Positions 3,329 to 23,476 are shown, numbered from the stretch's first letter. The stretch is 64,000 nt of DNA from Candidatus Argoarchaeum ethanivorans (GCA_004193545.1 RPGO01000033.1:129841-193840), one strand, 5' to 3'. Program-made: numbers and translations. The notes: generated by a model not told the origin, from the letters alone.

Positions 3329-3341
3329 GAGGTGCTTTATC

Positions 3342-4811: not shown

Positions 4812-4828
4812 AAAAAAGGTGATTATTT

Positions 4829-4903
4829 ATGAATATAATGAATATCACACCCTATATCTTCAAAACTGATCCAATCGCAACACCACGTAATGTGACACTC
4901 TGA
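4829..4903 (+). CDS. possible 24-residue peptide after pycA
   Basis: An ATG at 4829 is preceded by AAAAGGTGAT at a good distance and opens a 24-codon frame ending at 4903. Its last third is formed by the 20-bp dispersed motif (4879-4898), so the frame may be accidental. I list it because of the ribosome-binding site; there is no homology argument. Confidence 0.15.
   Translation: MNIMNITPYIFKTDPIATPRNVTL
4879..4898 (+). repeat. 20-bp dispersed motif, copy 3
   Basis: Reads AACACCACGTAATGTGACAC, nearly identical to the reverse strand of 73-92. It lies in the short gap between the convergent pycA and mmp7 genes. Confidence 0.55.
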
Positions 4904-4911
4904 TTTTTCAG

Positions 4912-5832
4912 TCACTCGCCAAAAAATGAGCCTGCTGTCGATTCTCTCTGTATTTTCACCAGAATCTGACCAGTGTAAGATTGGCTCACCTCTGCTGCAT
5001 CAGTAAGAGTTCTATTGTTTAGAATGTGCAGATTTTTAATATCATCTGCGTAGGTGTCATACGGCAATTTAATGCGCAGACTATCAAGCTTTAACGTAAC
5101 AGGAGCAGGTGAAAGACATGTTTCAATGGCAGGAACTTGCTCTTCAATCTCTTGCTTAAGATAAATCGGTGGAACCACAAGTGGATCATCTTTTAGCTCT
5201 TCTTTTATCTTTTTCACAGTTTCAAGCACAGCTTGTGTAACTTTATTCAAACGCTCCTGTTCATCACCTTTTCTAAAACTCATGAGTATGCGGGTCAGGC
5301 CGTCGACATAGGTAATATTGGACTTTTCTACTTCCATTGGCGGATAAGCCATTACTACTATTGGCATGTCGAGATCTTCTATCATCTTGAGCTTATATTC
5401 TTTAATGCAGTGCTCAAAGCTTCCGAACATAAACACTGCAAGATCGTGCTCTTCGATGAGAGCTCTCTCCATTGCACTCATTCGACATATCTCCAACCCA
5501 ACACCCCGCGCCATGGCAAGAGAATCTACCTTAGCTCCATTCTCTCGAAAATTTTGAATAATACCGCAATGAGGCATTGGAGCATGATGCCTGGAGTATG
5601 AAGGTGAGACCATTATAATCTCAGTACCTGCAAGTAGTGCAGACTTCAGATCTCCAAAAATCCGCCCACTCATCTCTTCTACCTTTTGAACGTCTTCCTT
5701 TGGTACGGCAAAAATTATAACTACTTCAGTGGTCTGCATGCTCTTGGAAATAATAAAACCACCAACGTCTTCAACAAGGTCTATCACCCAATCATATTTA
5801 TAGGGTGCACCGCGATATATCATGAATTCCAT
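4912..5832 (-). CDS. mmp7: methanogenesis marker protein 7
   Basis: Member of the marker-7 family found only in organisms with methyl-coenzyme M reductase and known from component A3 of the MCR activation complex. The 306-residue protein starts EFMIYRGAPYKYDWVIDLVEDVGG. It has the conserved SPSYSRHHAPMPHCGI and MARGVGLEICRMS segments (about residues 95-150) and a FMFGSFEHCIKEYK stretch, features I recognise from the family. The C-terminal 60 residues are less conserved. It overlaps the end of the upstream marker-17 gene by 13 bases, so the two are co-translated. Presence of this pair is the best metabolic marker in the window. Confidence 0.85.
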   Translation of the reverse strand: MEFMIYRGAPYKYDWVIDLVEDVGGFIISKSMQTTEVVIIFAVPKEDVQKVEEMSGRIFGDLKSALLAGTEIIMVSPSYSRHHAPMPHCGIIQNFRENGAKVDSLAMARGVGLEICRMSAMERALIEEHDLAVFMFGSFEHCIKEYKLKMIEDLDMPIVVMAYPPMEVEKSNITYVDGLTRILMSFRKGDEQERLNKVTQAVLETVKKIKEELKDDPLVVPPIYLKQEIEEQVPAIETCLSPAPVTLKLDSLRIKLPYDTYADDIKNLHILNNRTLTDAAEVSQSYTGQILVKIQRESTAGSFFGE

Positions 5833-6386
5833 TGCAATTTCTCCTTGGAATAATCAATCCACTCCTTTTCAATCGTTTTTTCTGATGCAATCACCAGTAC
5901 AGAATCACCAGCATATTCTACGCGCCTGACTCTGAAACCAACCGGGATTATATCAACAGCAAGAGTGATCAGTTGTTCATAAAAATCCTCTAATGGGTCA
6001 ACAACCATAACATCCAGAAGCTTCTCGACGTCGGCATCGTTACTTACTCCTTTGACAATAATATGCTGCCGCTCGGATTGTTCCACACGGTCCTGACCAT
6101 ATACGTCCCACAGCTTACGCAGCATGTCTGCTAAATAACGCTCTTCACCAATAACAAGGTCAACATCTTCTTCACCAACACGTTCAGTGGATAAATCTCT
6201 GATTTTGAGGGGAGTTCCACTTCGTTCAAAATCAACCCGGCACGAGAAAAAAAGAGCTGCTGGATCGGCATAGATATGAATAGCATCGAGACTTTTGACA
6301 CTCATGTCATTCAGCACATAGTCAACGATCTGCCGATACGCTTCGACAGCATGTTTGTCTTCAGATTCAATAAACAGCTTTTCCAT
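5820..6386 (-). CDS. mmp17: methanogenesis marker protein 17
   Basis: Marker-17 family protein, a partner of marker 7 in the MCR activation complex. I place the start at the ATG of MEKLFIESEDKHAVEAYRQI (6386, 188 residues) rather than at upstream in-frame codons (to 6458). The reason is a TATA-like GGTATATATTCC about 25-35 bases before it, giving an essentially leaderless message, and because the extra 24 residues fall in a dispersed repeat. The family features seen are the N-terminal sequence, the DAIHIYADPAALFFSCRV core and the C-terminal VGFRVRRVEY region. It is the first gene of a two-gene operon with mmp7. Confidence 0.82.
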   Translation of the reverse strand: MEKLFIESEDKHAVEAYRQIVDYVLNDMSVKSLDAIHIYADPAALFFSCRVDFERSGTPLKIRDLSTERVGEEDVDLVIGEERYLADMLRKLWDVYGQDRVEQSERQHIIVKGVSNDADVEKLLDVMVVDPLEDFYEQLITLAVDIIPVGFRVRRVEYAGDSVLVIASEKTIEKEWIDYSKEKLQWNS

Positions 6387-6411
6387 GTATAAACAGGTGA
6401 AATAGTGGATT

Positions 6412-6423
6412 GGAATATATACC
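6412..6423 (-). promoter_or_regulatory. TATA box of mmp17-mmp7
   Basis: The minus strand reads GGTATATATTCC. Its centre is about 30 bases upstream of the ATG at 6386, the usual distance from box A to a transcription start in archaea, so the transcript probably begins at or just before the start codon. Confidence 0.5.
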
Positions 6424-6437
6424 TTATGGTCGGCACA

Positions 6438-6642
6438 TTTCGGCTCTCTGTGTACCATCGCGTTGCAGTGAACTTATAACCCACATGGAAGAATCGGAAG
6501 CGTTTTGTGATTGGTTACAATGCAACCATCCAAATAACTGCTTCTTATAGCAGTGCAAACATCAGATGACGTGACAGTTTCTCTTCACCCGATCCACAAT
6601 TTTTCAGATCGACTCTTAACATCTTTGGATTCACCACCCATT
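6438..6642. repeat. long dispersed repeat, copy 1 (pairs with 62514-62685)
   Basis: This stretch matches 62514-62685 in the same orientation. Shared blocks include GGCTCTCTGTGTACCATCGC, the segment around GTTTTGTGATTGGTTACAATG, and the tail CACAATTTTTCAGAT. Copy 1 carries about 30 extra bases in the middle (near 6525-6560). The 20-bp motif is embedded in both copies (6558-6577 here). No open frame is shared, so it looks like a non-coding element. Confidence 0.7.
6558..6577 (+). repeat. 20-bp dispersed motif, copy 4
   Basis: Reads AACATCAGATGACGTGACAG inside the long repeat at 6438-6642. Confidence 0.5.
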
Positions 6643-8990: not shown

Positions 8991-9938
8991 TTAATTATAT
9001 GAATTAATATAATCATCTATTTGATTCCAATAAGGAGAATTCTTCACTAATTTTTCAATATAATCCTCGTCAATATTTTGATTTTCCATAACAGGTAAAT
9101 GGATGTTAGTTGCTGCAAATTTTGTTTTGTAACATTGCCTTCCATATGACCATCGCCATTTCACGTTGTCTAACATGAATTGAATGAAAAAAAGAGTGGT
9201 TATTCGAAAATTACATTTTGGCTCACATATAACAACATTATCAGTTGAAATGAAATCGTGTAGTTGAACAAAAGCATCCCCTGTAACTGTTGATACAGTA
9301 ATAAAATGTTTAGAATATATTTTTGCATTTTCTGGCTTATCATAATATCCAACAATTCCATTATTAAAAGCAACTCTTGAAACTGTTGGATACTTTCCTA
9401 TGTCAAGTCTATCCAATGCATGGAAATCCCCTCTATGTAAAGCGAACAACTTCTCAATATTAAACAATTTAAAATTGCGATTGTGTTCAATTTGAATTGA
9501 ATTAATTATATTTATTGGTAATGATTTATCTATCTTTTCATAATCTTTATTTTCATAAGGGATTATTTCCAAATCTTTAAATCTCTTTTCTGTCACCATT
9601 CTTCCAAAAGAAAATCTCCATTTTAAAGTATTATTAATATATGCTGAATAATATAGCAATTCGTCTTTATTCATTTTACTTTTAGGTTCAAGAATAATTA
9701 AACCACTGCCTCCATTACCTCTAGGAATAAAAGGTGGATCTTGAACAGTTGCATCACAAAAAGCTGAAACACAAATTCCTCTAAATCTAAAAACCCTATC
9801 AGTGTTAAAAGGTGATACAAAACCTACTACACCATTATTCATAACGCCATTTGATATAAATGGAATTGTACCATTATCATAATTCTTAAAACCCTTTGAT
9901 TTGGCATTATGTATATTGAACACATCGTTAATCTTCAT
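8991..9938 (-). CDS. specificity subunit of a BcgI-like restriction-modification system
   Basis: DNA-recognition subunit with two target-recognition halves. The start is ATG 9938 (MKINDVFNIHNAKSKGF), overlapping the end of the methylase gene by 11 bases; this gives 315 residues. The two halves are built alike: each contains an 'F.F.G..VT..RFKD' or 'W.W.YGRQCYKTKF' type block (about residues 120-150 and 270-290), as in HsdS proteins. The gene is AT-rich compared with topA. Together with the fused nuclease-methylase upstream, and with no separate HsdR, the arrangement matches type IIB BcgI A/B rather than a classical type I system. The recognition sequence cannot be read from here. Confidence 0.72.
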   Translation of the reverse strand: MKINDVFNIHNAKSKGFKNYDNGTIPFISNGVMNNGVVGFVSPFNTDRVFRFRGICVSAFCDATVQDPPFIPRGNGGSGLIILEPKSKMNKDELLYYSAYINNTLKWRFSFGRMVTEKRFKDLEIIPYENKDYEKIDKSLPINIINSIQIEHNRNFKLFNIEKLFALHRGDFHALDRLDIGKYPTVSRVAFNNGIVGYYDKPENAKIYSKHFITVSTVTGDAFVQLHDFISTDNVVICEPKCNFRITTLFFIQFMLDNVKWRWSYGRQCYKTKFAATNIHLPVMENQNIDEDYIEKLVKNSPYWNQIDDYINSYN

Positions 9939-11805
9939 TATAGGTCTCCTCTTGCTTTGTTCTAATAATGTAAGCAATAGTTTCTCGAATTAATTGTTCG
10001 ATTCCCTTTTCAAGCTCCTCTTCATTTGGTATTTTCTGGTCAAGATAAACCTCTGGAATTAATTCCAAGGCATTGTCATTAAGGTTTATAGGGGCAGATT
10101 TGTAAAATTCTGGAATACTTTCGCTAGACATATTCGGATTCATAATAAATGATTTTAATATGGGTGTAATAATTTCAAAATCATTTGGCTCTTTCTTATT
10201 TGGCAATCTTTTTCCTTTAACTTTTAAAAAGCCATCATGCAGAATCCTTGCCCAGAATACATTTTGATCTACTGGATGAGAGATTCCTTTTTTGATAAAT
10301 ATTCCTATTGTGTGAACACCTATTGGGTAGAAAAGTTCTGGTGGGAATGTTACAACTGATAATAATGTATTTTCTTTCAAGAGTTTATTTTCTCGCCATG
10401 CTTTCTCTTGCCCCCCTTCAAACATCACTGAAACTGGTAATACACTGAATAAAACACTGCCATCATCCATCTGGTCGAGTGCGTGCTGAATAAATTTATA
10501 TTCCTTTTCATCACTACTTTTTAGAGCAAAAGGTGGATTCATTAATACTTTAGAAATAATTTTATCTCCCGGTTTTGATGTATAACCTGCAGTTATATGG
10601 CCATCTATTGTTTTTTTGACTAAGTTTTTCTGAAAACAATTTCCTTCAATGATATTATTTTTACCATCTCCTCTAAAAATCATATTAACTATGGCTAAAG
10701 CTACTACTTCGGGTTCTTGTTCTACTCCAAACAAATTATGCTTTTTAAATTCATTAATTTGTTTTTTTGTTGAACTTTTCTTTATATAATCAAAAGCTGC
10801 TACCAAAAAACCGCCCGTTCCACATGTAGGATCATATACAAAATCTTGTTTTGATACATTCAGAATTTCAACAGCCCATTTTGTGATATGTCTTGGGGTT
10901 AAAACAATACCGATTTCTTTAGCTCCATTGCCATATTTGAGGAAAACTTCATAGAATTTTCCTAAAACATCAGCTCCAGAATTCATTGCTGACCTAATAT
11001 TCAAATTATTTAATTCTTGGATAGTTGAAACTAATGCCAGTTTGAATTTTATATGATTATCTTCTGTAGGTGGCAAAGATATATTTATAAAATTGTAAAA
11101 TTCTCCCTTTCCCTGTTGCTTTAATACTCTTTTTGCCCTACTATTTATTTCTTCTATCAAAATTGAAGGTGGTGCATCAATATTCGGAGGGACTTCATCA
11201 ATTAAGGCCAATAGCAATGCTGCCATGACCCTTGCCCGATAATTCTTATTTATTGCTCCAAGATGCAAAATTTGATTTATTTTTTCAGCCTTTGATAGAA
11301 ATAATCCCTCATCAATTGGTATATCTTCAATTATAGGATTGTTTGTATTTAATAGATGAATAGCAATTTCTTTTGAAATAAGGCTTGATATTTCCTTACC
11401 ATTTATAGTAATTCGTGTGAATTTTCCATTTTTTAAAAACCTGCTTTTAATAAGATAACCATCAGTTTGGTTTCCTGCAACCCCAGATACAATCAATGCG
11501 TTAACGGAATTGCTCTTGTTTATATGATTTGCATAATCTATTGCTTCAGAAAGAGCTTGATCCAATTGTGTGTGAGATCTTTTTGATTCGATTATCCAAA
11601 AATATTTTTCTGATAATTTAACAACATTTTCAGGTTTAAGTTGTCCTAAACATTTTTTTAATTCTGAATGGTTAAAAACTTCATTTTGAGTATATACTTC
11701 TCCGTTTGGATTTCTGGCAGGATTTCTGATATCCCATCCAATAGTTTTTAAATTTTCTTTAATAAATATATATGCATCAACCTCAGTATCTTTCGATTTT
11801 GCCAT
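9928..11805 (-). CDS. fused nuclease and N6-adenine methylase (BcgI A-like)
   Basis: The 625-residue protein has an N-terminal domain with a PD-(D/E)xK-like pattern. A glutamate lies in the PENVVKLSEK segment, followed by a strand and WIIESKR (about residues 57-76). A helical HsdM-type middle part and a gamma-class methylase follow, with the SAM motif DPTCGTGGF near residue 325 and the catalytic VLMNPPFA near residue 420. It probably both cuts and methylates DNA, guided by the downstream specificity subunit. Its length is close to that of the BcgI A subunit as I remember it (about 640). Start ATG 11805 follows AAAGGTGAAATT. Low GC and lack of housekeeping neighbours suggest horizontal transfer. 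A plain HsdM with an unusual N-terminus is the alternative. Confidence 0.78.
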   Translation of the reverse strand: MAKSKDTEVDAYIFIKENLKTIGWDIRNPARNPNGEVYTQNEVFNHSELKKCLGQLKPENVVKLSEKYFWIIESKRSHTQLDQALSEAIDYANHINKSNSVNALIVSGVAGNQTDGYLIKSRFLKNGKFTRITINGKEISSLISKEIAIHLLNTNNPIIEDIPIDEGLFLSKAEKINQILHLGAINKNYRARVMAALLLALIDEVPPNIDAPPSILIEEINSRAKRVLKQQGKGEFYNFINISLPPTEDNHIKFKLALVSTIQELNNLNIRSAMNSGADVLGKFYEVFLKYGNGAKEIGIVLTPRHITKWAVEILNVSKQDFVYDPTCGTGGFLVAAFDYIKKSSTKKQINEFKKHNLFGVEQEPEVVALAIVNMIFRGDGKNNIIEGNCFQKNLVKKTIDGHITAGYTSKPGDKIISKVLMNPPFALKSSDEKEYKFIQHALDQMDDGSVLFSVLPVSVMFEGGQEKAWRENKLLKENTLLSVVTFPPELFYPIGVHTIGIFIKKGISHPVDQNVFWARILHDGFLKVKGKRLPNKKEPNDFEIITPILKSFIMNPNMSSESIPEFYKSAPINLNDNALELIPEVYLDQKIPNEEELEKGIEQLIRETIAYIIRTKQEETYNED

Positions 11806-12211: not shown

Positions 12212-12496
12212 AGTCACTATACTCCGTACTTATAGGTACATGGCTTGTTAGTGATTTTCTTCTTATAAACATTTTGGTTTCTCCCTGTAATTCTTACGTC
12301 CCAATATATTTCTCGACAACTTCCCATCTGTGACCAGTAGATCCATACACCAACCTCGATGAAGGCATTCCATACAAAGCTTGTGTCTATAAATATTTTA
12401 GTAAGTATTTATACAAATACATACAAGTTGTTTGCCATACGCATGAAAAACTTCATTATTGTTATTGTTTCTTCAAGCGATACCAATGTTTTTCAT
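12212..12496 (+). repeat. dispersed repeat, copy 1 (pairs with 28146-28404)
   Basis: Direct copy of the sequence at 28146-28404. Strong blocks are the start (AGTCACTATAC), CCAATATATTTCTC near 12301, GTTGTTTGCCATA near 12429 and TTCAAGCGATACCAATG near 12473. It ends at the stop codon of EcfT. No coding frame is shared between copies, which favours a non-coding mobile element or an RNA. Confidence 0.65.
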
Positions 12497-13338
12497 AGGA
12501 AAAATATGAGTGTAATGACAAAAACAATGACAATGGGAACAAAAATATAATCACAATGTCCAAATTTCAACTCATTATACATAGTCGGACGCTTTGTGTA
12601 TCCAAAGCCCCTGCATTGCATCGCTTCAGAAACTGTTTGTGATCTCCTCAAAAGAGATACAGTCATTGGAATAAACAATGACAGGAACTTGCCATAGTTT
12701 TTAAGTACACTGCCCCGGTCAAATTCAAGGCATCTCGAACGTTGAGCATCCATTATATTTCTCACGTCACTGCTCAGGTACGTAGTGGAACGGAGTGCAA
12801 GCCCAAGAGAAAAGCAGACAACGTACGGAATCCTGAACTTCCTGAGTCCCTTGACGAAATCTTCATACTTTGTGCTCATTATAAACAGCATCGAGATTCC
12901 AACGAACGTTAACAGCCGAAATCCCATCGCTGCGCTGTGAAATATGCCCTCGAACGTAATCTCCGGGTGGAGTATCCATAAATCAGCAGAGAATAAGACA
13001 TGCCCGTACGAAACCCTTGGGAAGAACATGTTCACAGCAACGATCATCACGAGGAATGGAACGATCCGTCTCATCACGTGCAGCCAGTATTTGAACATAC
13101 CAGAAACAGCTGCGAGTGCCACGATTGGACTGAACAGGATCGCCATCGGAACGAGTTCTTCAGTGAATAGAGAGACACAACTGAATAATATTACCATAAA
13201 AAATTTGGTTCGTGGGTCCAGTTGATGCAGGATTGAGTTTCCATCCACATACGTAACCAGTTCCCGCCTTCTTTTCTGTCCACCCCCATTCTCTCGTTTT
13301 CTCTTCCCGGACAGTTTATCGAAGATGAATTTTAACAT
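12493..13338 (-). CDS. ecfT: ECF transporter transmembrane subunit (EcfT)
   Basis: Membrane coupling subunit of an energy-coupling-factor importer; it links the ATPases to the substrate-binding S component. The 281-residue protein has a basic N-terminus, then HQLDPRTKFFMVILFSCV, a signature of EcfT/CbiQ proteins, and about five to six hydrophobic segments. Two coupling-helix motifs are seen near the C-terminal half (DAQRSRCLEFDRGS and EAMQCRGFGYTKR), each with the Ala/Cys-Arg-Gly type pattern. It overlaps the upstream ATPase gene by 7 bases and is the last gene of the seven-gene operon. Length is typical. Confidence 0.88.
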   Translation of the reverse strand: MLKFIFDKLSGKRKRENGGGQKRRRELVTYVDGNSILHQLDPRTKFFMVILFSCVSLFTEELVPMAILFSPIVALAAVSGMFKYWLHVMRRIVPFLVMIVAVNMFFPRVSYGHVLFSADLWILHPEITFEGIFHSAAMGFRLLTFVGISMLFIMSTKYEDFVKGLRKFRIPYVVCFSLGLALRSTTYLSSDVRNIMDAQRSRCLEFDRGSVLKNYGKFLSLFIPMTVSLLRRSQTVSEAMQCRGFGYTKRPTMYNELKFGHCDYIFVPIVIVFVITLIFFL

Positions 13339-15038
13339 TTGACCTGATCCCTCATCTCAATCTCATCAACGCTGAGCACATTACTCAAGCCAAGCCGCTT
13401 TCCGATCTCTGTAGCCTGTGGCAGATGCAGCGATGCTTCTTTGACTAATTCCTCTGATGTCAGCACCTCTCTTGCGCTACCATCACCAATAATTTCGCCT
13501 TTTGACAGCAATACAACCCTTTCCGCGTATGCCGCTGCAAACTCCACATCATGCGTTACCACGATTATCGCCCTGTTTTCTGCCTTCAACCGGTTAAGCA
13601 TGGCTGCAAGTTTAGCTTTGAGACCATGGTCGAGTCCAAGTGTTGGCTCATCCATAACGATCACCTCGGGACTGAGCGTGAGCACCCCTGCAATTGCGAC
13701 CCTCTGCATCTCGCCTCCGGATAAGACCAGTGGTGAGGACGAAAGTCCCAGTTCTTCCAGTCCGAGAGAGGTTGCTACCCCATTCACGCAATCTGCAATC
13801 TCGTCATCGGATAGCCCGATGTTCTTTGGTGCAAATGCGAGTTCACCATATATTGTCTCCTCGAAGAGCTGGTAACTCGCATTCTGAAAGACCAACCCCA
13901 CTGTTCGTCCAGCCTCTGCAATCGTTTTATTCGTTATATTCTCACCGTTTAAGATAACTTCCCCTTTATTGGGTCTGAGTAAGCCGTTGAGATGCTTTAT
14001 CAACGTCGTCTTACCAGAACCGTTTTCACCCATTATCACAGTAAACTCGCCGCAATAAAAATTAAGTGTCACACCACTTAGTGCACTCTGGTTTTTCGTT
14101 CCCGGATACCTGTAAAATATATTCTTAAGAGAGACTGCCGGTTCTCTGCTTCTGCTGCCACCACTACCACCATTACCACCATGACCATTAAACGTTGATC
14201 TCCAGCCGCAACAAGGATTTAAATCATCTACGGACCGATACTGGTGCAGCGGAAACCCAAACTTCTTTGAGAACTGCACCAGTGGTGGGATGAACACACC
14301 CATATTTTCAAGCCCGGTTTGGAACACTTCTTCCGGTGTGCCGTCACAGGTTATCTTTCCTTTTTTTAGCACGATCAGCCGTTTCATAACTCCAAGGAGC
14401 CGTTCGATTCGGTGCTCGACCAATATCACTGTTATGCCAAATTCCTTGTTCAGTCGTTTCAACGCATCCATCAGAAGAAAAGCCCCGGTTGGGTCCAATT
14501 CTGAAGTCGGCTCGTCAAAAACAAGTATATCCGGTTTCATGGCTATTGCCGATGCAATTGCAACCCGTTGCTTCTCGCCACCAGATAATTCGCTTATCAA
14601 CCGATCTCTCAGGTGTTCTATCCCGATGGAAGATATAGCCAGCGAGATTCTCTCAGCAACTTCATGTCTTCCTATCCCCAAATTTTCTGGTCCAAATGCA
14701 ATCTCAGACTCAACGTCATTTGAAAATAGCTGGTTATCAGGGTCCTGAAATACCATGCAAAGGTGTGGTGCAAATTCAAAGACCTCGTGTTCTGTTGTGT
14801 TCATGCCGCATACGGTAACCTCGCCATCCATCATGCCGCCGATTGCGTGCGGTATCAGCCCGTTCAGGCACTTGCAGAGCGTTGATTTGCCGCAACCGCT
14901 TGGTCCTGTTATAACAACAAATTCCCCACTATTAACTTGCAGATTTATATCACTCAAAGCACCTGTTGTCCCTCTTATAGATCCTCGCTCATACTCAAAT
15001 GAGAGGTTCCTGACATCAATCAACCGACTTCTTTTCAT
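13332..15038 (-). CDS. ECF transporter ATPase, fused A and A' subunits
   Basis: Drives uptake by hydrolysing ATP. The 568 residues hold two complete ABC domains. The first has Walker A GPSGCGKST (about 42-50), signature LSGGEKQR and Walker B DILVFDEPTSELD. The second has GENGSGKTT (about 335-343), signature LSGGEMQR and Walker B VIVMDEPTLGLD. A glycine-rich linker (GHGGNGGSGGSRS) joins them. Separate EcfA1 and EcfA2 are the usual state; the fused form is known in archaea. It overlaps the S-component gene upstream (23 bases) and EcfT downstream (7 bases). The symmetrical intact motifs indicate both sites are active. Confidence 0.9.
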   Translation of the reverse strand: MKRSRLIDVRNLSFEYERGSIRGTTGALSDINLQVNSGEFVVITGPSGCGKSTLCKCLNGLIPHAIGGMMDGEVTVCGMNTTEHEVFEFAPHLCMVFQDPDNQLFSNDVESEIAFGPENLGIGRHEVAERISLAISSIGIEHLRDRLISELSGGEKQRVAIASAIAMKPDILVFDEPTSELDPTGAFLLMDALKRLNKEFGITVILVEHRIERLLGVMKRLIVLKKGKITCDGTPEEVFQTGLENMGVFIPPLVQFSKKFGFPLHQYRSVDDLNPCCGWRSTFNGHGGNGGSGGSRSREPAVSLKNIFYRYPGTKNQSALSGVTLNFYCGEFTVIMGENGSGKTTLIKHLNGLLRPNKGEVILNGENITNKTIAEAGRTVGLVFQNASYQLFEETIYGELAFAPKNIGLSDDEIADCVNGVATSLGLEELGLSSSPLVLSGGEMQRVAIAGVLTLSPEVIVMDEPTLGLDHGLKAKLAAMLNRLKAENRAIIVVTHDVEFAAAYAERVVLLSKGEIIGDGSAREVLTSEELVKEASLHLPQATEIGKRLGLSNVLSVDEIEMRDQVKC

Positions 15039-15567
15039 TCCTTTTGATCACTCCGGATTTGTATAATCTGGCAAGGATAAGTGCTGAAATAATCCCACCA
15101 AGCCCGCCGAATATGAAATGAGAAAGCGATGCAAACCCGATACCAATAAGAATAAAGACCGCAGGTACTCCCAGCGTGAGATGGATATAGTAGTTCACAA
15201 CCATCTTTGAAAGATTTCCCGCAGCACCAAGTATGAATCCAACGGCAGGATTATCAAGGTGCTTTGCAAACGGAACTGTCAAGAGATCGATGGTAACCCC
15301 CATTACCAGGTATTTGAAAAGATCAAAGATGTGAAAACCACCCAGTCCAAAGAATGAGGCTAATATGCCCGAAATAAACCCAATGTACGTGCCGGCACCA
15401 AATTTCCTCACGATCGCAACACCCATGATTACAGGCACGACCCAGAATATGCCGGTGTGACCCGGGATGTGCAGGGGTATTCGTAATACGGTTCTCAGTA
15501 TAAAAACCAGGGCTCCCAGCAGTGACAACACTGCAATTTCATACAAGCTGAAATATGCTTTTCTCAT
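15016..15567 (-). CDS. ECF transporter substrate-binding S component
   Basis: A 183-residue integral membrane protein with about six hydrophobic helices, starting MRKAYFSLYEIAVLSLLGAL. Size and topology fit ECF S components, and genes for the ATPase and EcfT follow with overlaps. The S component sets the substrate, but I cannot assign one. It lacks the obvious signatures I associate with biotin (BioY) or riboflavin (RibU) carriers, and CbiM-type histidines are absent from the N-terminus. Its start overlaps the end of a secreted-protein gene by 4 bases, which ties import to that cell-surface protein. Substrate prediction is left open. Confidence 0.75.
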   Translation of the reverse strand: MRKAYFSLYEIAVLSLLGALVFILRTVLRIPLHIPGHTGIFWVVPVIMGVAIVRKFGAGTYIGFISGILASFFGLGGFHIFDLFKYLVMGVTIDLLTVPFAKHLDNPAVGFILGAAGNLSKMVVNYYIHLTLGVPAVFILIGIGFASLSHFIFGGLGGIISALILARLYKSGVIKRNEKKSVD

Positions 15568-16415
15568 GTAATAAGATCCCGTGGCGATTTATAACCGCTC
15601 GATTTTATATGCAGTAGAAAATCATCCGGTATGTCTCCACTTATCGCAACCATCAGTACAGCATCATCACAAAATCCCCGTCCGCCTGTATTCGATATGT
15701 AAAATACTCCGGATCGATTCGCGGTATACGTCACCTGACCTTCCGGGTTATCCGGGTCTGTTGTTATATGAAGTGAATTCAAACCTCCGCCAGTGTGATC
15801 GAATTTCATGTAATACGTGCTATCGTTATAATCGTCATACTCTGCACCATTGTCATTTGCAACCATGACATGAGTGTAGTGGCATCCCTCAAGTTTCTCT
15901 GTTTTTGGTGTATTGGCGCTTCCATCTTTTAGTCCAGTCACATAATAACCGCTCACGCCAGGTCCCTTCACACTATTTGTCCATGACACGCCTCTGCCGC
16001 GATTGGATTTCTCACAGTACCCATAGGTGTGAAAAGCTGCAAAGCCACAGAGATTCCCAAACGTGTATTCAACTCTGACCGCACCCGAGTCTGTCAGGTT
16101 CGAGAGCTTCCCAATTGGCGCTGCATAAAGGTCTATGAACATAATATAAAAATCACCACTTATATTTCCATCAGTTTCACCCACGGGTACAATAGGGAGT
16201 TTTGATGTGTATGGCTTCCACGTCTGGGGACCGTAAACAAAATCTTCTTTTGTAAATGTCTCGTTTATTGCATCGATCACGTAAGTTTCACAGACGATTT
16301 CTTCCATAGCGTCCTGCTGCGTTGTGCCAGCACATACATACTGCAGCAAAAACATAGAACCCACGAACACAAGAAGTAAAGAAATGGATAGGAATGTTTT
16401 GTTGTTTAGATTCAT
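15564..16415 (-). CDS. secreted surface protein with A-B domain order
   Basis: A 283-residue protein with an N-terminal signal-like hydrophobic segment (residues about 7-28). It has two domains shared with the proteins at 17126-18517 and 18549-19517. Domain A spans about residues 45-165 (NETFTKEDFVYGPQTWKP ... GRGVSWTNSV). Domain B spans about 180-275 (VANDNGAEYDDYND ... DDFLLHIKSSGY). In the other two proteins the order is B then A. There is no C-terminal membrane anchor or dockerin, so this one may be soluble or lipid-free outside the cell. It lies between the TiaS-like gene and the S component with a 4-base overlap. A role in capturing the ECF substrate is inference. Confidence 0.7.
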   Translation of the reverse strand: MNLNNKTFLSISLLLVFVGSMFLLQYVCAGTTQQDAMEEIVCETYVIDAINETFTKEDFVYGPQTWKPYTSKLPIVPVGETDGNISGDFYIMFIDLYAAPIGKLSNLTDSGAVRVEYTFGNLCGFAAFHTYGYCEKSNRGRGVSWTNSVKGPGVSGYYVTGLKDGSANTPKTEKLEGCHYTHVMVANDNGAEYDDYNDSTYYMKFDHTGGGLNSLHITTDPDNPEGQVTYTANRSGVFYISNTGGRGFCDDAVLMVAISGDIPDDFLLHIKSSGYKSPRDLIT

Positions 16416-16416
16416 A

Positions 16417-17118
16417 TCAGTCCTTTTTTAATGCTATAAACTCGCTACCACATTTCTCTACAAACAGCACGGCTTTACCCTGTACAAAAGAAGGTTTTGG
16501 GGATTTCTGCAGATCAATGAACCCATCGGTTACGATTTGTCCATCCAGCGTCATGATCTGGTCGATGCCAGCGCTCAAAATATCTGCTATGTGTTGTGTT
16601 CCAGTCAGTTCCCTAGTCCTATCTTTTAGAACAAACCTGCCATCACATTTCATCGAGGCTAACCCGATTCCAGCAACCGCACCTATTACACCATCCTCGG
16701 TTCCTCCAAGTCCTCCTAGAAGGGTGTTGGTGTTCTTTGCGATATCTCTCGCCCTCTCCTGTGTCAAAACTGTCCTCTTTGCATCCATGCCAAAATAAAC
16801 AATGCAAGGCGATATCTTGTCACTTGAAGCAACTGCCAAACCAGGATCGCTCCCTTCGATAAAATCCGCAAGCATCATCTCCTTTGTAGTCTTAAAGAGG
16901 TCTTTTAACGTTCCATCCTCATTATCTTTTAGGTGAATTACAGCACAGCTGTTGTGAGATGTAAATGGAATATCTTCGTGGACGTAGAGCTGATGCCTTG
17001 TAACTCCAAATATCGTGTGCGACTTCGAGAGTTCCGCTGCGATCATTCTTGCGAGTCTCCCGGTACCTCTTGATTCCAGGTTGTCTGTATCATCTATGCT
17101 GATATAAATCATATTCAT
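16417..17118 (-). CDS. TiaS-like protein lacking the tRNA-binding part
   Basis: The 233 residues resemble the N-terminal kinase-like and ferredoxin-like part of TiaS, the enzyme that adds agmatine to cytidine 34 of tRNA-Ile2. It starts MNMIYISIDDTDNLESRGTG, with the IDDTD motif at about residues 8-12, and has GLGGTEDGVIGAVAGIGLAS near residue 135. Full TiaS is about 420 residues with OB-fold and zinc-ribbon domains; neither is present. It therefore may act on a small molecule or another target. It sits between two surface-protein genes (7 and 1 bases away), an odd place for a tRNA enzyme. A bona fide tiaS may lie elsewhere in the genome. Confidence 0.65.
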   Translation of the reverse strand: MNMIYISIDDTDNLESRGTGRLARMIAAELSKSHTIFGVTRHQLYVHEDIPFTSHNSCAVIHLKDNEDGTLKDLFKTTKEMMLADFIEGSDPGLAVASSDKISPCIVYFGMDAKRTVLTQERARDIAKNTNTLLGGLGGTEDGVIGAVAGIGLASMKCDGRFVLKDRTRELTGTQHIADILSAGIDQIMTLDGQIVTDGFIDLQKSPKPSFVQGKAVLFVEKCGSEFIALKKD

Positions 17119-17125
17119 TTTATTC

Positions 17126-18517
17126 TTATCTCCATTTTATTAAATAAGCCACTGCCAATAGTCCGATAAATGCAAATAATACTCCAAATCCTGCTGATTC
17201 AGGTTCTGGCGAGGAAGGGAAAGTAGGAGATGGATGTTGTGTTGCTTCTGGGGTAGTTGGAGCTTGTAGAGTGTTTGGAGTTGGTGTCACGTTTGCCGGT
17301 GACTCTTCAGTTGGTGCTGGGGTGGGTGTTGGTACCGTTTCATTCGCGGTTTCATTCAACGTCTCAGCCATAGTTATAACAGGAGTGAACTGGTGGTCTT
17401 CTTCAATGTCTTCATCATCGTCCTGATTTTCATTGTCCTCGGCACCTGTAGGAAACCGTACTGTTACATTCATAGTTCCATTCACATTTCCATGTTCTGC
17501 TGTTATCGTGGCATTCCCCGGAGAAAGTGCAGTGAATAACCCGTTTTCACCGATCATTCCAACGGTTTCATTGCTGCTTGTCCATGTGAAAGACACGTCT
17601 ATCATTTCATCGCCATCTTGATCGTATGCGGTTGCATTGAACTGTTGTGTGCAACTTACATTCAGGGCTGTGTTGGGTGATGAGACTGTAATCGATGTCA
17701 AAACCGGTGGTGCTACACCGATCACGTTATATCCACTGTGCTGGCCGGTTCCTGTGAGTCGGTTGGTCCAGAATACGCCTTTTCCGCGGTTTGACTGGTT
17801 GCACCATGCGTAAGCATTGAACACCGCAAAGCTGTGGAGGTTCTCAAACCTGTACTTGATCTTTATTGCACCGCTGTCTGTCAGGTTGATCAGATCGTCA
17901 TCCTCACACAATACGCCCACATTCAGATCAATGAAGACAAGATTGAATACATTGTCGCAATCGCCCGTGTTCTGTCCATCATGGATTGGGTAATCCGCGC
18001 AGTTCATTGGTCTCCATGTCTGTGGTCCGTAGATCAGGTCAGTTATTGTGAATGTCTCGTTTACAGCGCAATCCACGTAGCTCACCTCATCCATCGCAGG
18101 TTTCTGACTCTTTGCAGGTACTGGAGTCCAGTCATATCCACTCGATTTGATGTGAATCTCAAAGTCATTCGATATTGTCCCATTTACCGCAAGCATGAGG
18201 ATTACCGCGTCATCGAATCCTTTTCCACCACCGGGATATGTGATGTAAAACGTACCGGATTGATTACTTGTTGTCGTCACCTGCCCTTCTGGAACCGATA
18301 TGTCATTAGTTACATAAAGCGATCCAAGTCCCTGTGTTGCTGACCCATTGAATACGAAATGGTAGGTATTGTTACCATAAATATCGTATTTTGCACCGGG
18401 ATCGTTTGCCACCTGTACGTATACCTGATGGTAGTCCGGGAGCGGGTCTGCACTCACGGACGCTGCTAACATACACGCGGCAAGCAGCAATAACAGCGAT
18501 CTGATAGCCTGCTCCAT
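17126..18517 (-). CDS. membrane-anchored surface protein, B-A domains plus Big-2 repeat
   Basis: A 463-residue secreted protein. A signal peptide (residues 1-23, ending SVSA-D) is followed by domain B (about 28-130, VQVANDPGAKYDIYGNN ... DFEIHIKSSGYDWTP). Domain A follows (about 148-265, NETFTITDLIYGPQTWRP ... GKGVFWTNRL). Then comes a Big-2-like immunoglobulin fold (LTSITVSSPNTALNVSCTQQF to VNGTMNVTVRF, about 273-355). A Glu/Asp stretch and a long Thr-Pro-rich spacer lead to a C-terminal helix FGVLFAFIGLLAVAYLI with KWR at the end. This is a typical archaeal stalk-and-anchor layout. Together with its neighbours it is probably part of a cell-envelope complex. Confidence 0.75.
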   Translation of the reverse strand: MEQAIRSLLLLLAACMLAASVSADPLPDYHQVYVQVANDPGAKYDIYGNNTYHFVFNGSATQGLGSLYVTNDISVPEGQVTTTSNQSGTFYITYPGGGKGFDDAVILMLAVNGTISNDFEIHIKSSGYDWTPVPAKSQKPAMDEVSYVDCAVNETFTITDLIYGPQTWRPMNCADYPIHDGQNTGDCDNVFNLVFIDLNVGVLCEDDDLINLTDSGAIKIKYRFENLHSFAVFNAYAWCNQSNRGKGVFWTNRLTGTGQHSGYNVIGVAPPVLTSITVSSPNTALNVSCTQQFNATAYDQDGDEMIDVSFTWTSSNETVGMIGENGLFTALSPGNATITAEHGNVNGTMNVTVRFPTGAEDNENQDDDEDIEEDHQFTPVITMAETLNETANETVPTPTPAPTEESPANVTPTPNTLQAPTTPEATQHPSPTFPSSPEPESAGFGVLFAFIGLLAVAYLIKWR

Positions 18518-18548
18518 TCATAACTCCGATTCAACTGTCGTTACCGTT

Positions 18549-19517
18549 TCAGTCCTTTTCGACAGAGTACCCGCTGCTTCCACTTCCGGAAACCTGATTC
18601 GTCCATGATACACCCTGCCCGCTGTTTGATTGGTTGCACCATGCATAGGCATTGAATGCTGCAAAGGTTTCAAGGTTTTCGATGGAGTATTCGACTTTTA
18701 CGAAACCATTATCAATCAAACTATTGTTCATGCCCAGTACTCCAACATTAAGGTCGATGAACATGAGCTTGAATGTGTTACTTTCTTCACTCATATCCTG
18801 CCCGTAATATAGTGGGTAATTCTTTGATTTGGATGGCTTCCATGTCTGCGGCCCGTACATGAAGTCGGATTTTGTGAATGTCTCGTTTACCGCTTCATTT
18901 ATGTAGTTGATTTCACCAGATTCGGGTGCTACATCGCCCGGGGTTGGGGTCCAGTTGTATCCGCTTGATTTAATGTGAATCGCAAAGGCATCCGATATCG
19001 TCTCGTTTACAGCAAGCATGAAAATCGCATTGTCTTTGAATCCTTTTCCACCGGTATCTGTGATGTAAAATGTGCCAGATTGAGTACTTGTTGTCGTCAC
19101 CTGCCCATCTGGTATCGATGTGTCATTAGTTACATGAAGCGAGTTCAACCCTGCTTTGTCAAATCTGATATAATACGTATCGTTGCCATAGATGTCATAT
19201 TTCACACCAGCGTCGTTTGCCACATTTACATGGATGTGGTGGTGGTCAGGAAGCATTGCTCCATTTGCATCTTGTGCATCCACTTCCTGTAGAATCATCA
19301 ACGCATCAAGCGAGGTGACCTTGCCGTCTCCGTTCATATCAGCAACAAGATCGGTTGGGATGCTGCCGACAGCCATCTGCAATGCGCGTGACGCATCGGC
19401 AGTTGTGAGTGTTTCCGCAGTGTACTTTGTTGTGTTTAATTCCGTTGTGGCTACAAGTGCAGCCGAACTTGCCATCGCAATGCACAGCAGCATTGTCAAT
19501 ATCATATTTTTTTTCAT
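18549..19517 (-). CDS. secreted surface protein with dockerin-like and B-A domains
   Basis: A 322-residue protein and the first gene of the operon. A signal peptide (about 1-22) is followed by a dockerin-like module with the calcium loop DMNGDGKVTSLDALMIL (about residues 62-78). The preceding half-repeat lacks the calcium residues. Domain B follows (HVNVANDAGVKYDIYGND to IHIKSSGYNWTP), then domain A (NETFTKSDFMYGPQTWKP to SGQGVSWTNQVSGSG). There is no membrane anchor, so attachment could be through the dockerin to a cohesin-bearing protein; none is visible in this window. It is separated by 31 bases from the anchored paralogue downstream. Confidence 0.75.
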   Translation of the reverse strand: MKKNMILTMLLCIAMASSAALVATTELNTTKYTAETLTTADASRALQMAVGSIPTDLVADMNGDGKVTSLDALMILQEVDAQDANGAMLPDHHHIHVNVANDAGVKYDIYGNDTYYIRFDKAGLNSLHVTNDTSIPDGQVTTTSTQSGTFYITDTGGKGFKDNAIFMLAVNETISDAFAIHIKSSGYNWTPTPGDVAPESGEINYINEAVNETFTKSDFMYGPQTWKPSKSKNYPLYYGQDMSEESNTFKLMFIDLNVGVLGMNNSLIDNGFVKVEYSIENLETFAAFNAYAWCNQSNSGQGVSWTNQVSGSGSSGYSVEKD

Positions 19518-19605
19518 CTTATTTATCCTCTTTTTAACATATTTTTAATCATTTTAGTACATAGTAGTGTGTATATTTTCCTATAATTAATTGCGAAGTA
19601 ATCAA

Positions 19606-19665
19606 CTACTGCCTCTCTGTTTACCGCATCTACCAGTTAACACAAACAGAGTAATCTGATAGTAG
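19606..19665 (-). promoter_or_regulatory. foldable 5' leader of the surface/ECF operon
   Basis: On the minus strand two nested helices can form: an 8-bp stem between AAACAGAG and CTCTGTTT (19615-19622 with 19644-19651) inside a 5-bp stem (19606-19610 with 19661-19665). It would lie in a predicted leader of about 215 bases between the TATA box and the first ATG. It may be a riboswitch-like element, but helices this short can occur by chance. Confidence 0.3.
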
Positions 19666-19731
19666 ACTTGTGCTACAACTAAAAACAGGATCATTATCGC
19701 TGATTCAATATTTTTGATTACAGTACTTCGA

Positions 19732-19749
19732 TGTGTTCCCATGAACACA
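19732..19749. promoter_or_regulatory. operator-like palindrome at the predicted transcription start
   Basis: TGTGTTCCCATGAACACA has perfect 7-bp arms around a 4-base centre. It lies just downstream of the TATA box at 19757-19765 and would cover the transcription start, the usual place for an archaeal repressor site. Confidence 0.45.
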
Positions 19750-19756
19750 GCATATT

Positions 19757-19765
19757 GTTTATAAG
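19757..19765 (-). promoter_or_regulatory. TATA box of the surface/ECF operon
   Basis: The minus strand reads CTTATAAAC within ATACTTATAAACAATATG. A start about 25 bases downstream falls near 19733, inside the palindrome. Confidence 0.45.
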
Positions 19766-19986
19766 TATTTCTAAAATATGAAACACATATTAATTATTAA
19801 TATATATTAATTTTAATGTTGGTAGCAATCATGAACATGCTTAACTATCGTATGGAAGTCCACATAAAACTATGAGATTAACAAAGAAATCTCGTGGAAA
19901 TCTGTGTAATCTTGTGGTTAAAATCCTGAAACCCATGGCTTATATGTGAAAGACAAGGCAAAAAGATAGATCCTTTATTTTTCACG

Positions 19987-21116: not shown

Positions 21117-21773
21117 TTAGACATAATACTTGGACAGTTTCTTATCCGCCTTCCCCCTCGTAAACCCCCAGTTGATTTTCTTTTCATCGTCATTCCGTCT
21201 CCTGGTCCACGCTGTCACCTCATGAGTCAGTATCTCCATATCTCCAATCCGTCTGTCAGTGCATTCGATATCCATCACATTGATCTCGATTTCAGCGGCA
21301 TTAAGCCAGCTTGCATGTTTTGGCGTGTAATGAAACTCGATCTTGCTCAAAATCCTTTCCGCCTCCTCCTCACTGAATGCCTCGTAAAATGACTTTTCCT
21401 TGTGAGTATTGAGGTTATCCATGACCAGTCGGATGTTTTCAACGTCCGGGTATTCTTCATCGACAAGCATCCTCACAAATTGTGCAAAATCCACCATGGT
21501 TCTTCTTTTGGTGATCTGGGTCACACGTTTCCCTGCTTTGAATTCGACCGCCATGAATATGTTTGCTGTGCCGTTCCTGACGTATTCATAATCATATTTC
21601 TCAGGGATTCCGGGCTCCATAGGAATGGAAATCCTTTTATCTCCAAGAAGTTGCTTTGGTTTCTCGTCAAAACAGACAATGGGACTTCCCGGGTCGTACG
21701 GTTCTTCGTACAGATCGAGAACATCGTACATCCGTTCTCTGTATTCGGTGTCGATCGTCTGTATGCACCACAT
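21117..21773 (-). CDS. IS630 transposase, C-terminal DDE part
   Basis: Catalytic portion of 218 residues listed from the first ATG. It contains VCFDEKP (first acidic residue, about residue 35), VMDNLNTHKEKSF (second aspartate, about 122) and NAAEIEINVMDIE (glutamate), the DDE triad of IS630 elements. The open frame extends upstream of the ATG through KPWLRR, which joins logically to the N-terminal gene. It is therefore probably made mainly as a fusion by minus-one frameshifting, not from its own start. No internal stops. Confidence 0.85.
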   Translation of the reverse strand: MWCIQTIDTEYRERMYDVLDLYEEPYDPGSPIVCFDEKPKQLLGDKRISIPMEPGIPEKYDYEYVRNGTANIFMAVEFKAGKRVTQITKRRTMVDFAQFVRMLVDEEYPDVENIRLVMDNLNTHKEKSFYEAFSEEEAERILSKIEFHYTPKHASWLNAAEIEINVMDIECTDRRIGDMEILTHEVTAWTRRRNDDEKKINWGFTRGKADKKLSKYYV

Positions 21774-21778
21774 CCGCC

Positions 21779-22210
21779 TTAACCAAGGTTTAGTTTTGCT
21801 TTTTTTAAAATAAGCCTGATACTCTCTTTGTTTATCGTTTCAAACCCATCCTTCTTTCGCATTTCTTCTGTTAGTAGTGTAAGTGTCCATCTCTTGCGCC
21901 CATCAGGTGATTCGGTGCATGCCTGCGCTATAACTTCCGCCGCATGTTTCTCTGTATACTTTTTAGGCTGACCGGATCTTGGTTTCTCCGCGAGGGCGTT
22001 TTGGAGACTTTCTTCGCGGTATTTCTTCTTGGTGTTGGAAACGGTTGCCCTGCTGATCCGCAGCGTATCTTTTATCTCCATTTCCTTTTTTCCATCATTG
22101 ACCAGAAGCAAAATATGTGCCCGGGTCAATTCTCTCGCGCTTTTACGCCCCATTTTCACGAAATCGTTGAGATACTCCACCTCTTTCTCTGTAAGTTTTA
22201 TTTTTTCCAT
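21779..22210 (-). CDS. IS630 transposase, N-terminal helix-turn-helix part
   Basis: DNA-binding portion, 143 residues, starting MEKIKLTEKEVEYLNDFVKMGRK. A first helix-turn-helix (REL-TRAHILLLVNDGKKEMEIKDTLRISRATVSNTKK, about residues 24-62) is followed by the EKPRSGQPKKYTEK linker and a second HTH-like segment. The frame stops just after KAKLNLG. An A7 run upstream of this stop allows a minus-one shift into the catalytic frame. The ATG at 22210 lies 60 bases inside the right end of the element. Confidence 0.85.
   Translation of the reverse strand: MEKIKLTEKEVEYLNDFVKMGRKSARELTRAHILLLVNDGKKEMEIKDTLRISRATVSNTKKKYREESLQNALAEKPRSGQPKKYTEKHAAEVIAQACTESPDGRKRWTLTLLTEEMRKKDGFETINKESIRLILKKAKLNLG
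21800..21806 (-). other. candidate minus-one frameshift site
   Basis: The minus strand carries A7, read in the N-terminal frame as A AAA AAA. Slipping back one base continues into a frame reading KKSKTKPWLRRMWCI and on into the DDE domain, restoring the conserved KPW...MWCI junction of IS630 transposases. Confidence 0.5.
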
Positions 22211-22274
22211 AGAATATGGTTGGACTCACAGGTTTATAAACTTTGTCTAAAAATTAAGTTGCTGAGACACTAGT

Positions 22275-23476
22275 TAAACGTAAGAAGGCAAAAGAACTGC
22301 ATGAGAATGGTTGGAGTAACCGCAAAATAGCACGTCATCTACTGGCAAGCAAAAACAGTGTAGGTAAATGGGTGCAGATGGGTGAAAACGGAATATCAAG
22401 CGATAATAGAGGCTGGAAAAATGGAAAATCGAGAAAATACACGCCTGAAATAAAACGGCAAATTATAAAAATAAGAACAGATTTAGAGAGAGAAGACAGC
22501 TATTTTATTGGTTCGGATGTGGTCCAGCAAAACTATGAAAAGCAGACGGGCGAAAAAGTCTCAAAGTCATATATATGCCGAGTATTGAAGGGGGCAGGAA
22601 TGGTGAAAAGCCAGGAAAAAAAGAAAAAAGGGAAGAGCAAATACATGAAATATCCAGAATATACCCTGACCAAATTTGGTAAAAGCATGATGAGCATTGA
22701 CTTTATCGGTCCAAGGTATCTCAAAGGATCTGATAACAGAATTAATTTCCTTTCTTGCAAATACATCCGCCCGCAAAAGCAGGGAATAGTAAGAAGAATT
22801 GGGGGGCAGACTACTGAAGAGACGATAAAGGCATTGAAAGAAATCTGGAAGATACACCCCATCCCAGAAATACTGAAAATAGACAACGATTCAGCATTTG
22901 GGGCTAATTTACCGCACAAGAGACATATTGGCAAACTTGCATTCTTCCTGCTTAATCTGGGCGTTTGTCTCTTGTACGTAGCTCCGAGAAGCCCATGGAA
23001 CAATTAGGCAGGTGGAAGGATTTAACAGCGTCTTTTCAAAGAAATTCTGGAATAAACTGCAATTCAGCGATGAACAAGAGATCGATGTCAAAATCAAGGA
23101 TTTTAACGTTGCTTATGAGAAATATTCGCAGTTAGTTTCAAATAATCCAAAAATCAAAGAGGGGGGCATCAAGCATATAGATGATTTCAAAGACGTGAAT
23201 CTGGAAAATAAGTGTGTCAAACATTTTAAGGCAGATAAAATCTGTTTTTTACGGATTGTACGTCGAAAGAACGATAAATGCGGCGATAACGAGTACGGGT
23301 TCATTGATATTCTGAAGCATGAGATAAAATTGCCAAAAGACCTGATTAACTTGTTCGTATTCTGTGTTTTGAATCTTAAATCAAAGCTTCTTAAGATTAA
23401 TATCGAGCTGGATGGTGGATCTTTGAAAGTAATAAAATCAATAACATTCGTAATAAAAAATGTTATATATGATTGA
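22275..23476 (+). pseudogene. decayed IS481-like transposase
   Basis: Reading from 22275, the frame begins VKRKKAKELHENGWSNRKIA, a helix-turn-helix, and contains MSIDFIGPRY (first aspartate) and KIDNDSAFGANL (second aspartate). It then meets a stop at 23005. The protein continues in another frame as QVEGFNSVFSKKFWNK (catalytic glutamate) to 23476. One extra base in the codon after 'PWNN' accounts for the shift. Its start is missing because the IS630-type element inserted there. So it is a rve-family transposase broken at both the 5' end and the catalytic site. It was probably inactive before or soon after the IS630 insertion. Confidence 0.75.

Follow-up and report, generated by a model that had tools for sequence, protein, structure and literature searches.

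A conserved archaeal operon links paired-domain surface proteins to a YkoE-like ECF importer and suggests a nutrient relay

Many archaea are covered by an S-layer and lack an outer membrane, and how scarce nutrients pass through this protein coat to a membrane importer is poorly known. This question is raised by a locus in a 64,000-nucleotide stretch of Candidatus Argoarchaeum ethanivorans DNA (RPGO01000033.1:129841-193840, part of a 1.99 Mb genome that is 82% complete; the whole stretch is called the window here), in which seven minus-strand genes (19517-12493) encode three surface proteins, a TCKD-type kinase-like protein (TiaSL) and the S, T and ATPase components of an energy-coupling factor (ECF) transporter. 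We found the transporter genes, TiaSL and one type of surface protein conserved together in 24 other archaeal loci. The best reading of the locus, to which we give a probability of about one half, is that the surface proteins form a relay feeding a dedicated ECF importer. The seven genes, from 19517 towards 12493, are:

18549..19517, minus strand: surface protein 1, 322 amino acids (aa); signal peptide, dockerin-like segment (PF00404), domain A, domain B
17126..18517, minus strand: surface protein 2, 463 aa; domain A, domain B, Big_2 (PF02368), Thr/Pro-rich linker, PGF-CTERM anchor (PF18204)
16417..17118, minus strand: TCKD-type kinase-like protein (TiaSL), 233 aa; identified by profile matches
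15564..16415, minus strand: transporter-linked surface protein, 283 aa; N-terminal membrane helix followed by domains B and A in that order
15016..15567, minus strand: ECF S component, 183 aa; YkoE-like, six helices
13332..15038, minus strand: fused EcfA-EcfA' ATPase, 568 aa; two P-loops and two LSGGE signatures
12493..13338, minus strand: EcfT, 281 aa; CbiQ family

All open reading frames (ORFs) were found as the original prediction had described them, and the junctions are tight: gaps of 31, 7 and 1 bases are followed by overlaps of 4, 23 and 7 bases, so that no gap exceeds 31 bases. The product of 15564-16415, earlier called a secreted protein, had to be reassigned: it is an N-terminally membrane-anchored homologue of the other two surface proteins. 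Each of the three carries one copy of domain A (∼105 aa; the second and third copies are 69% and 54% identical to the first) and one of domain B (∼120 aa). Neither domain has a Pfam or NCBIfam match, and both are undescribed domain families. The domain order is A-B in surface proteins 1 and 2, and B-A in the protein that adjoins the S component. Of 77 ORFs with A/B domains, 25 are B-A, 39 are A-B, 9 are ABAB, 3 are ABABAB and one is BAB. The single BAB ORF is cut by the end of a fetched stretch and is not counted among the 51 complete ORFs that are not transporter-linked, all of which are A-B or (AB)n. The transporter-linked copy is B-A in 25 of 25 cases, every B-A ORF is the transporter-linked gene, and the two domains are always paired, neither ever occurring alone. 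An N-terminal membrane helix was called in 23 of the 25 B-A proteins.

The gene order around these proteins is conserved far beyond chance. A five-gene core (TiaSL, B-A protein, S component, A-A' ATPase and EcfT) was present in all 24 other loci examined, with the first four genes adjacent and in the same order in every case. EcfT follows directly except at L085 and L092, where giant A-B genes sit between the A-A' and T genes on the same strand. At L124 a single strand carries, in a row, two A-B genes, T, A-A', S, B-A, TiaSL, a gene designated X, VWA, DUF58, MoxR and another A-B gene. Except for L087, every locus (23 of 24) has further A-B surface proteins within ∼10 kb of the core, and these come in the formats seen in the window, namely small secreted A-B, dockerin-like and tail-anchored. 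Because of the conserved core, the nearby A/B proteins, the paired domains and the B-A versus A-B rule, the original proposal that the surface proteins and the ECF transporter are functionally linked is strongly supported; the genes co-occur and adjoin in 24 other loci, at some of which surface genes are even interleaved with ECF genes of one strand, and the link thereby withstands the refutation that the original prediction had set for it.

With one genome per species sampled, 394 genomes of the phylum yielded 25 with domain A, and 388 yielded 23 with the S component; both counts include the window's genome, and the second also includes a weak match in genome G202. All 21 other genomes with a strong S match are positive for domain A, and only G257 among the 24 other A-positive genomes was recorded without an S match; G470 and G472 fall outside the list of S matches, yet the S component is present in their fetched loci. 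The co-occurrence of A and S gave a Fisher's exact p-value of 9e-34, assuming that the same genomes were drawn and uncorrected for phylogeny. We excluded the S-like protein of G202 (32% identity), whose locus encodes neither TiaSL nor A/B proteins. A contig scan with strict patterns returned only five loci, and hence the counts of spread apply within the phylum. The search originally suggested, among Methanosarcinales and anaerobic methanotrophic archaea (ANME), found no co-occurrence; the relatives are Methanomicrobiales, named ones being Methanofollis, Methanoregula, Methanospirillum and Methanoculleus, and the 24 loci come from this order plus one presumed member of the Methanocellales (G175, locus L087). 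Methyl-coenzyme M reductase (MCR) was present in 11 of 12 genomes tested, the exception being G202 with its weak match. Because several closed Methanomicrobiales genomes carry the cassette, it can be tested in organisms among which are culturable genera.

The transporter has the composition predicted for a dedicated (group I) ECF importer. EcfT matches CbiQ/EcfT (PF02361, 1.6e-31), the fused ATPases match TIGR04520 and TIGR04521, both above cut-off, and the S, T and two ATPase units are encoded together in the window as in the 24 other loci. The S component falls slightly below the cut-off of PF09819 (E 6.7e-5, 23.5 bits against 25.2), a family matched by 23 of 24 S homologues (E up to 1, the best 6e-10). 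An AlphaFold2 model (predicted local distance difference test score, pLDDT, 84.9; predicted template modelling score, pTM, 0.80) has six helices, and its best match in the PDB is YkoE (5edl, E 1e-3, probability 1.0), with other S components ranking next; the model thus places the protein in the YkoE-like group I type. Several polar residues are kept among the homologues: D94 in 24 of 24, K121, N125 and S147 in 23 of 24 each, and H79 in 21 of 24. Modelling had been suggested earlier as a way to predict the substrate; it gave the YkoE-like fold.

The small protein encoded between surface protein 2 and the B-A protein had been described as TiaS-like, with the suggestion that it may modify the substrate. 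Profile comparison matched only the TCKD kinase domain of TiaS (96.9%, E 2e-10) and the C-terminal half of methanogenesis marker protein 11 (Mmp11; 96.3%), over a span of ∼150 residues. TiaSL is 233 aa long compared with ∼420 aa for TiaS, scores 28 bits against a TiaS cut-off of 600 and covers only about TiaS residues 1-170. Since it has only the kinase domain and none of the further TiaS domains after TCKD, we ruled out that it is TiaS. We also rejected Mmp11, because TiaSL scores 48.5 bits against the TIGR03280 cut-off of 255.8, matching only positions 132-284 of 292, and the N-terminal half of Mmp11 is absent; a second Mmp11 match, of Mmp11 length, is present elsewhere in the genome. DDTD is invariant in all 21 TiaSL sequences compared, and RGTG, RHQL, GSDPG and GLGGTEDGVIG vary little or not at all. 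TiaSL is therefore best described as a stand-alone protein of the TCKD-type kinase domain, with a putative kinase function, and the earlier suggestion holds for this domain and not for the rest of TiaS.

How might these parts work together? We propose a surface capture relay that supplies a small, scarce nutrient to its own dedicated (group I) ECF importer. The A-B proteins, anchored by PGF-CTERM or docked by dockerin on cohesin, would gather the substrate at a distance from the membrane. The B-A protein, itself anchored in the membrane, would then take it over through a B-A/A-B contact and load the S component, after which S, EcfT and the fused A-A' ATPase would bring it inside at the expense of ATP. 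Inside the cell, the TCKD-type protein would probably retain or activate the substrate by phosphorylation, either of the substrate itself or in a step dependent on it. Both attachment routes appear to be available to the surface proteins, because the genome encodes two cohesin-domain matches and a PGF-CTERM processing enzyme. The PF00404 match of surface protein 1 reaches 23.7 bits (cut-off 22.9) over profile positions 35-54 of 57 only, and dockerins on substrate-binding proteins of ATP-binding cassette (ABC) transporters in ANME (PMC9012536) provide a precedent. Two adjacent surface-protein ORFs at 312-5110 of L144 (G000:C13:1-9000) overlap the two cohesin-domain matches and are possible docking partners of the dockerin protein.

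By analogy, the relay would work like haem uptake by the Isd and LhaSTA systems, built from unrelated parts. In the Isd NEAT relay (PMC7815599), one binding module also recurs in distal surface proteins and in a membrane-proximal protein that loads the transporter, a part that the B-A protein beside the S component would play here. However, the window surface proteins have no similarity to NEAT (no Pfam match at E up to 1), and the Isd transporter is a classical ABC importer with a separate binding protein, IsdE. LhaSTA of the Staphylococcus lugdunensis isd locus (PMC7299338) is likewise a dedicated ECF importer, with its genes placed among those of anchored surface receptors; there the surface proteins are of the Isd type, the transporter works without them and no TCKD kinase is present, whereas the domains here are unrelated. 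NikKMLQO (PMC2667541) shares with our operon an ECF importer whose accessory proteins are encoded beside the S gene, but has a NikM-type S component, a DUF4198-type NikK and no A/B domains. YkoEDC of Bacillus subtilis (YkoE structure 5edl, PMC5037267) resembles our operon in having a dedicated S component of the PF09819 superfamily, a fused A-A' ATPase and its own EcfT, and provides the nearest solved S fold; it differs in that our operon adds surface proteins and the TCKD protein and its S component lacks the thiamine contacts of YkoE. TiaSL shares the TCKD-type kinase domain with DDTD with TiaS (agmatidine synthetase) and Mmp11, but stands alone, has a different C-terminal part and lacks the rest of TiaS and the N-terminal half of Mmp11. 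No description of a system with this content was found in the literature searched, in line with the original prediction. Its statement that ECF importers usually lack dedicated extracellular domains was too strong, given that NikK/NikL, CbiN and LhaSTA are known and that this genome has a NikK-like locus of its own. The unit offers two undescribed domain families, a strict rule of distal versus membrane-proximal domain order and an Mmp11-related kinase domain. More tentatively, and with considerable doubt, the relay, so far found only in MCR-bearing archaea, could use domain order to tell donor (A-B) from acceptor (B-A) and could carry a cofactor or precursor of alkane or methane metabolism that is trapped by the Mmp11/TiaS-type kinase.

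Several observations weigh against a capture relay. PDB sequence searches with the S component, the B-A protein and the S-like protein of G202 returned nothing useful, and Foldseek comparison of the two-domain B-A model gave weak beta-sandwich, lectin and CorA matches (template modelling score ∼0.2-0.3) that we did not use as evidence. Because neither domain A nor domain B has a relative of known structure and the model matches are weak, ligand binding by them is putative, and the capture of substrate by surface proteins, as originally predicted, is kept as the best available inference. L087 has the core without an extra A-B protein, and the core can therefore do without such proteins. Giant surface proteins of the Methanomicrobiales (up to 3441 aa) carry the adhesin-like domains NosD/beta-helix, PKD, Big_2 and PEGA. 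Finally, MoxR and DUF58 genes, present in 18 of 24 loci, and VWA genes, present in 16 of 24, have no place in the relay.

The last two observations fit a different model, in which the A/B proteins are adhesins or an S-layer-associated coat, the ECF-like complex with the B-A protein uses ATP for surface-protein assembly or release in the manner of FtsEX, and MoxR-DUF58-VWA acts as an assembly chaperone. We consider this model unlikely: the S component keeps a predicted YkoE-like six-helix fold and the polar membrane residues D94, K121 and N125, and the MoxR cluster is absent both beside the window operon and at its nearest relative, L087. The sole MoxR found in the window's genome lies elsewhere, with neighbours that lack DUF58 and VWA. 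To our knowledge, all characterised ECF modules import. The MoxR-DUF58-VWA(BatA-like) cluster, which includes a ∼500 aa secreted, membrane-anchored protein, was seen at L074, L076, L078, L080, L082, L084, L085, L092, L117, L120, L121, L123-L128 and L039.

A second alternative is import of nickel, cobalt or another metal with metal-binding surface proteins, as in NikKMLQO or CbiMNQO. The Pfam name of PF09819 is ABC_cobalt, NikK-type surface proteins exist, the B-A model has its weak match to copper-binding CorA, and 5 of 24 relatives have tungstate/molybdate ABC genes nearby. These genes (TupA, TupB, WtpA, WtpB and WtpC matches near A/B proteins at L088, L092, L126, L080 and L079) probably represent about three independent cases and may be a hint to the cargo or mere chance. 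Against this, the genome has two further EcfT genes, one within a CbiM-CbiQ-CbiO locus and the other in a cluster of NikK-like DUF4198/PGF-CTERM, NikM, NikL-like, NikQ and NikO genes (L143, G000:C28:14000-25000, positions 2416-6443). Because the genome has its own cobalt and nickel ECF loci, a nickel or cobalt cargo is less likely. The window S component has no CbiM/NikM-type (PF01891) match, true members of that family being present elsewhere in the genome, and thiamine is the ligand of the structurally solved S component of the PF09819 type (PMC5037267). We therefore regard a metal importer as quite unlikely. The NikK-like protein beside a NikM-type ECF importer does give a surface protein next to an ECF importer a precedent; a 2009 survey reported only NikMN-type systems in archaea (PMC2667541).

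A third alternative is an importer of thiamine or its precursor hydroxymethylpyrimidine (HMP) like YkoEDC, with the surface proteins secondary. The shared S, fused A-A' and T architecture, the PF09819 matches among S homologues and the 5edl fold all favour it. However, W49, E77 and Q95, which contact thiamine in YkoE (PMC5037267), lack counterparts in the S alignment, inspected by eye and anchored on the invariant proline of helix 2: the homologues have V, C or A at the helix 2 position after P45, no Glu in helix 3 and no conserved Gln in helix 4. The absence of these residues suggests that the cargo is probably not thiamine. In addition, an Rfam scan of the window found no thiamine pyrophosphate (TPP) riboswitch or other RNA family, and no thiamine gene was seen among the annotated recurrent neighbours of the relatives' loci. 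A thiamine importer thus seems improbable, and the evidence speaks against both thiamine and plain nickel or cobalt as the ligand class. A chance neighbourhood of surface and ECF genes, which the absence of the cassette from other genomes of the same family might suggest, is refuted by its conservation (24 of 24 loci keep the order across several archaeal families) and is hardly credible.

The S component is absent from five other genomes of the window's family, only one of them >90% complete, and the A/B surface protein is absent from 149 other genomes drawn from the order. This patchy presence suggests that the host gained the cassette by lateral transfer. In an unrooted tree (midpoint only) of S, TiaSL, A-A' and T, the window groups with G175 (L087), separated by a long branch from all Methanomicrobiales. 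The only MCR alpha gene found in the genome (L132, G000:C14, 337-2268) is divergent and best matches ethyl-coenzyme M reductase (7b1s, 942 bits; next structure 482), and because of this match we take the host to be probably a close relative of Ca. Argoarchaeum / Ca. Ethanoperedens that oxidises ethane. Upstream of the operon, at 21117-23476, lie integrase-like ORFs and split transposase-like ORFs (143 and 218 aa), as would fit a region that is mobile or has been rearranged.

Two candidate control elements precede the first gene:

19760..19767, minus strand: TATA-like element, TACTTATA preceded by GAAA, read by eye from the sequence
19732..19749, no strand assigned: perfect inverted repeat TGTGTTC-N4-GAACACA, operator-like, with 7-bp arms, just downstream of the TATA-like element

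Their position near the expected transcription start would fit control by a repressor. Both elements exist as originally noted, but the palindrome has no counterpart at the relatives' loci and was rejected as a conserved operator.

In one genus (L120, L121, L122, L123, L125, L127 and L074), NifE-like, NifH-sized and TrkH genes lie downstream of EcfT; the NifE-like and TrkH genes are limited to that genus, and we took them as flanking genes rather than operon members. Just downstream of the window operon, at 8991-11805, is a low-GC (31%) gene pair resembling the S and M subunits of a type I restriction-modification system.

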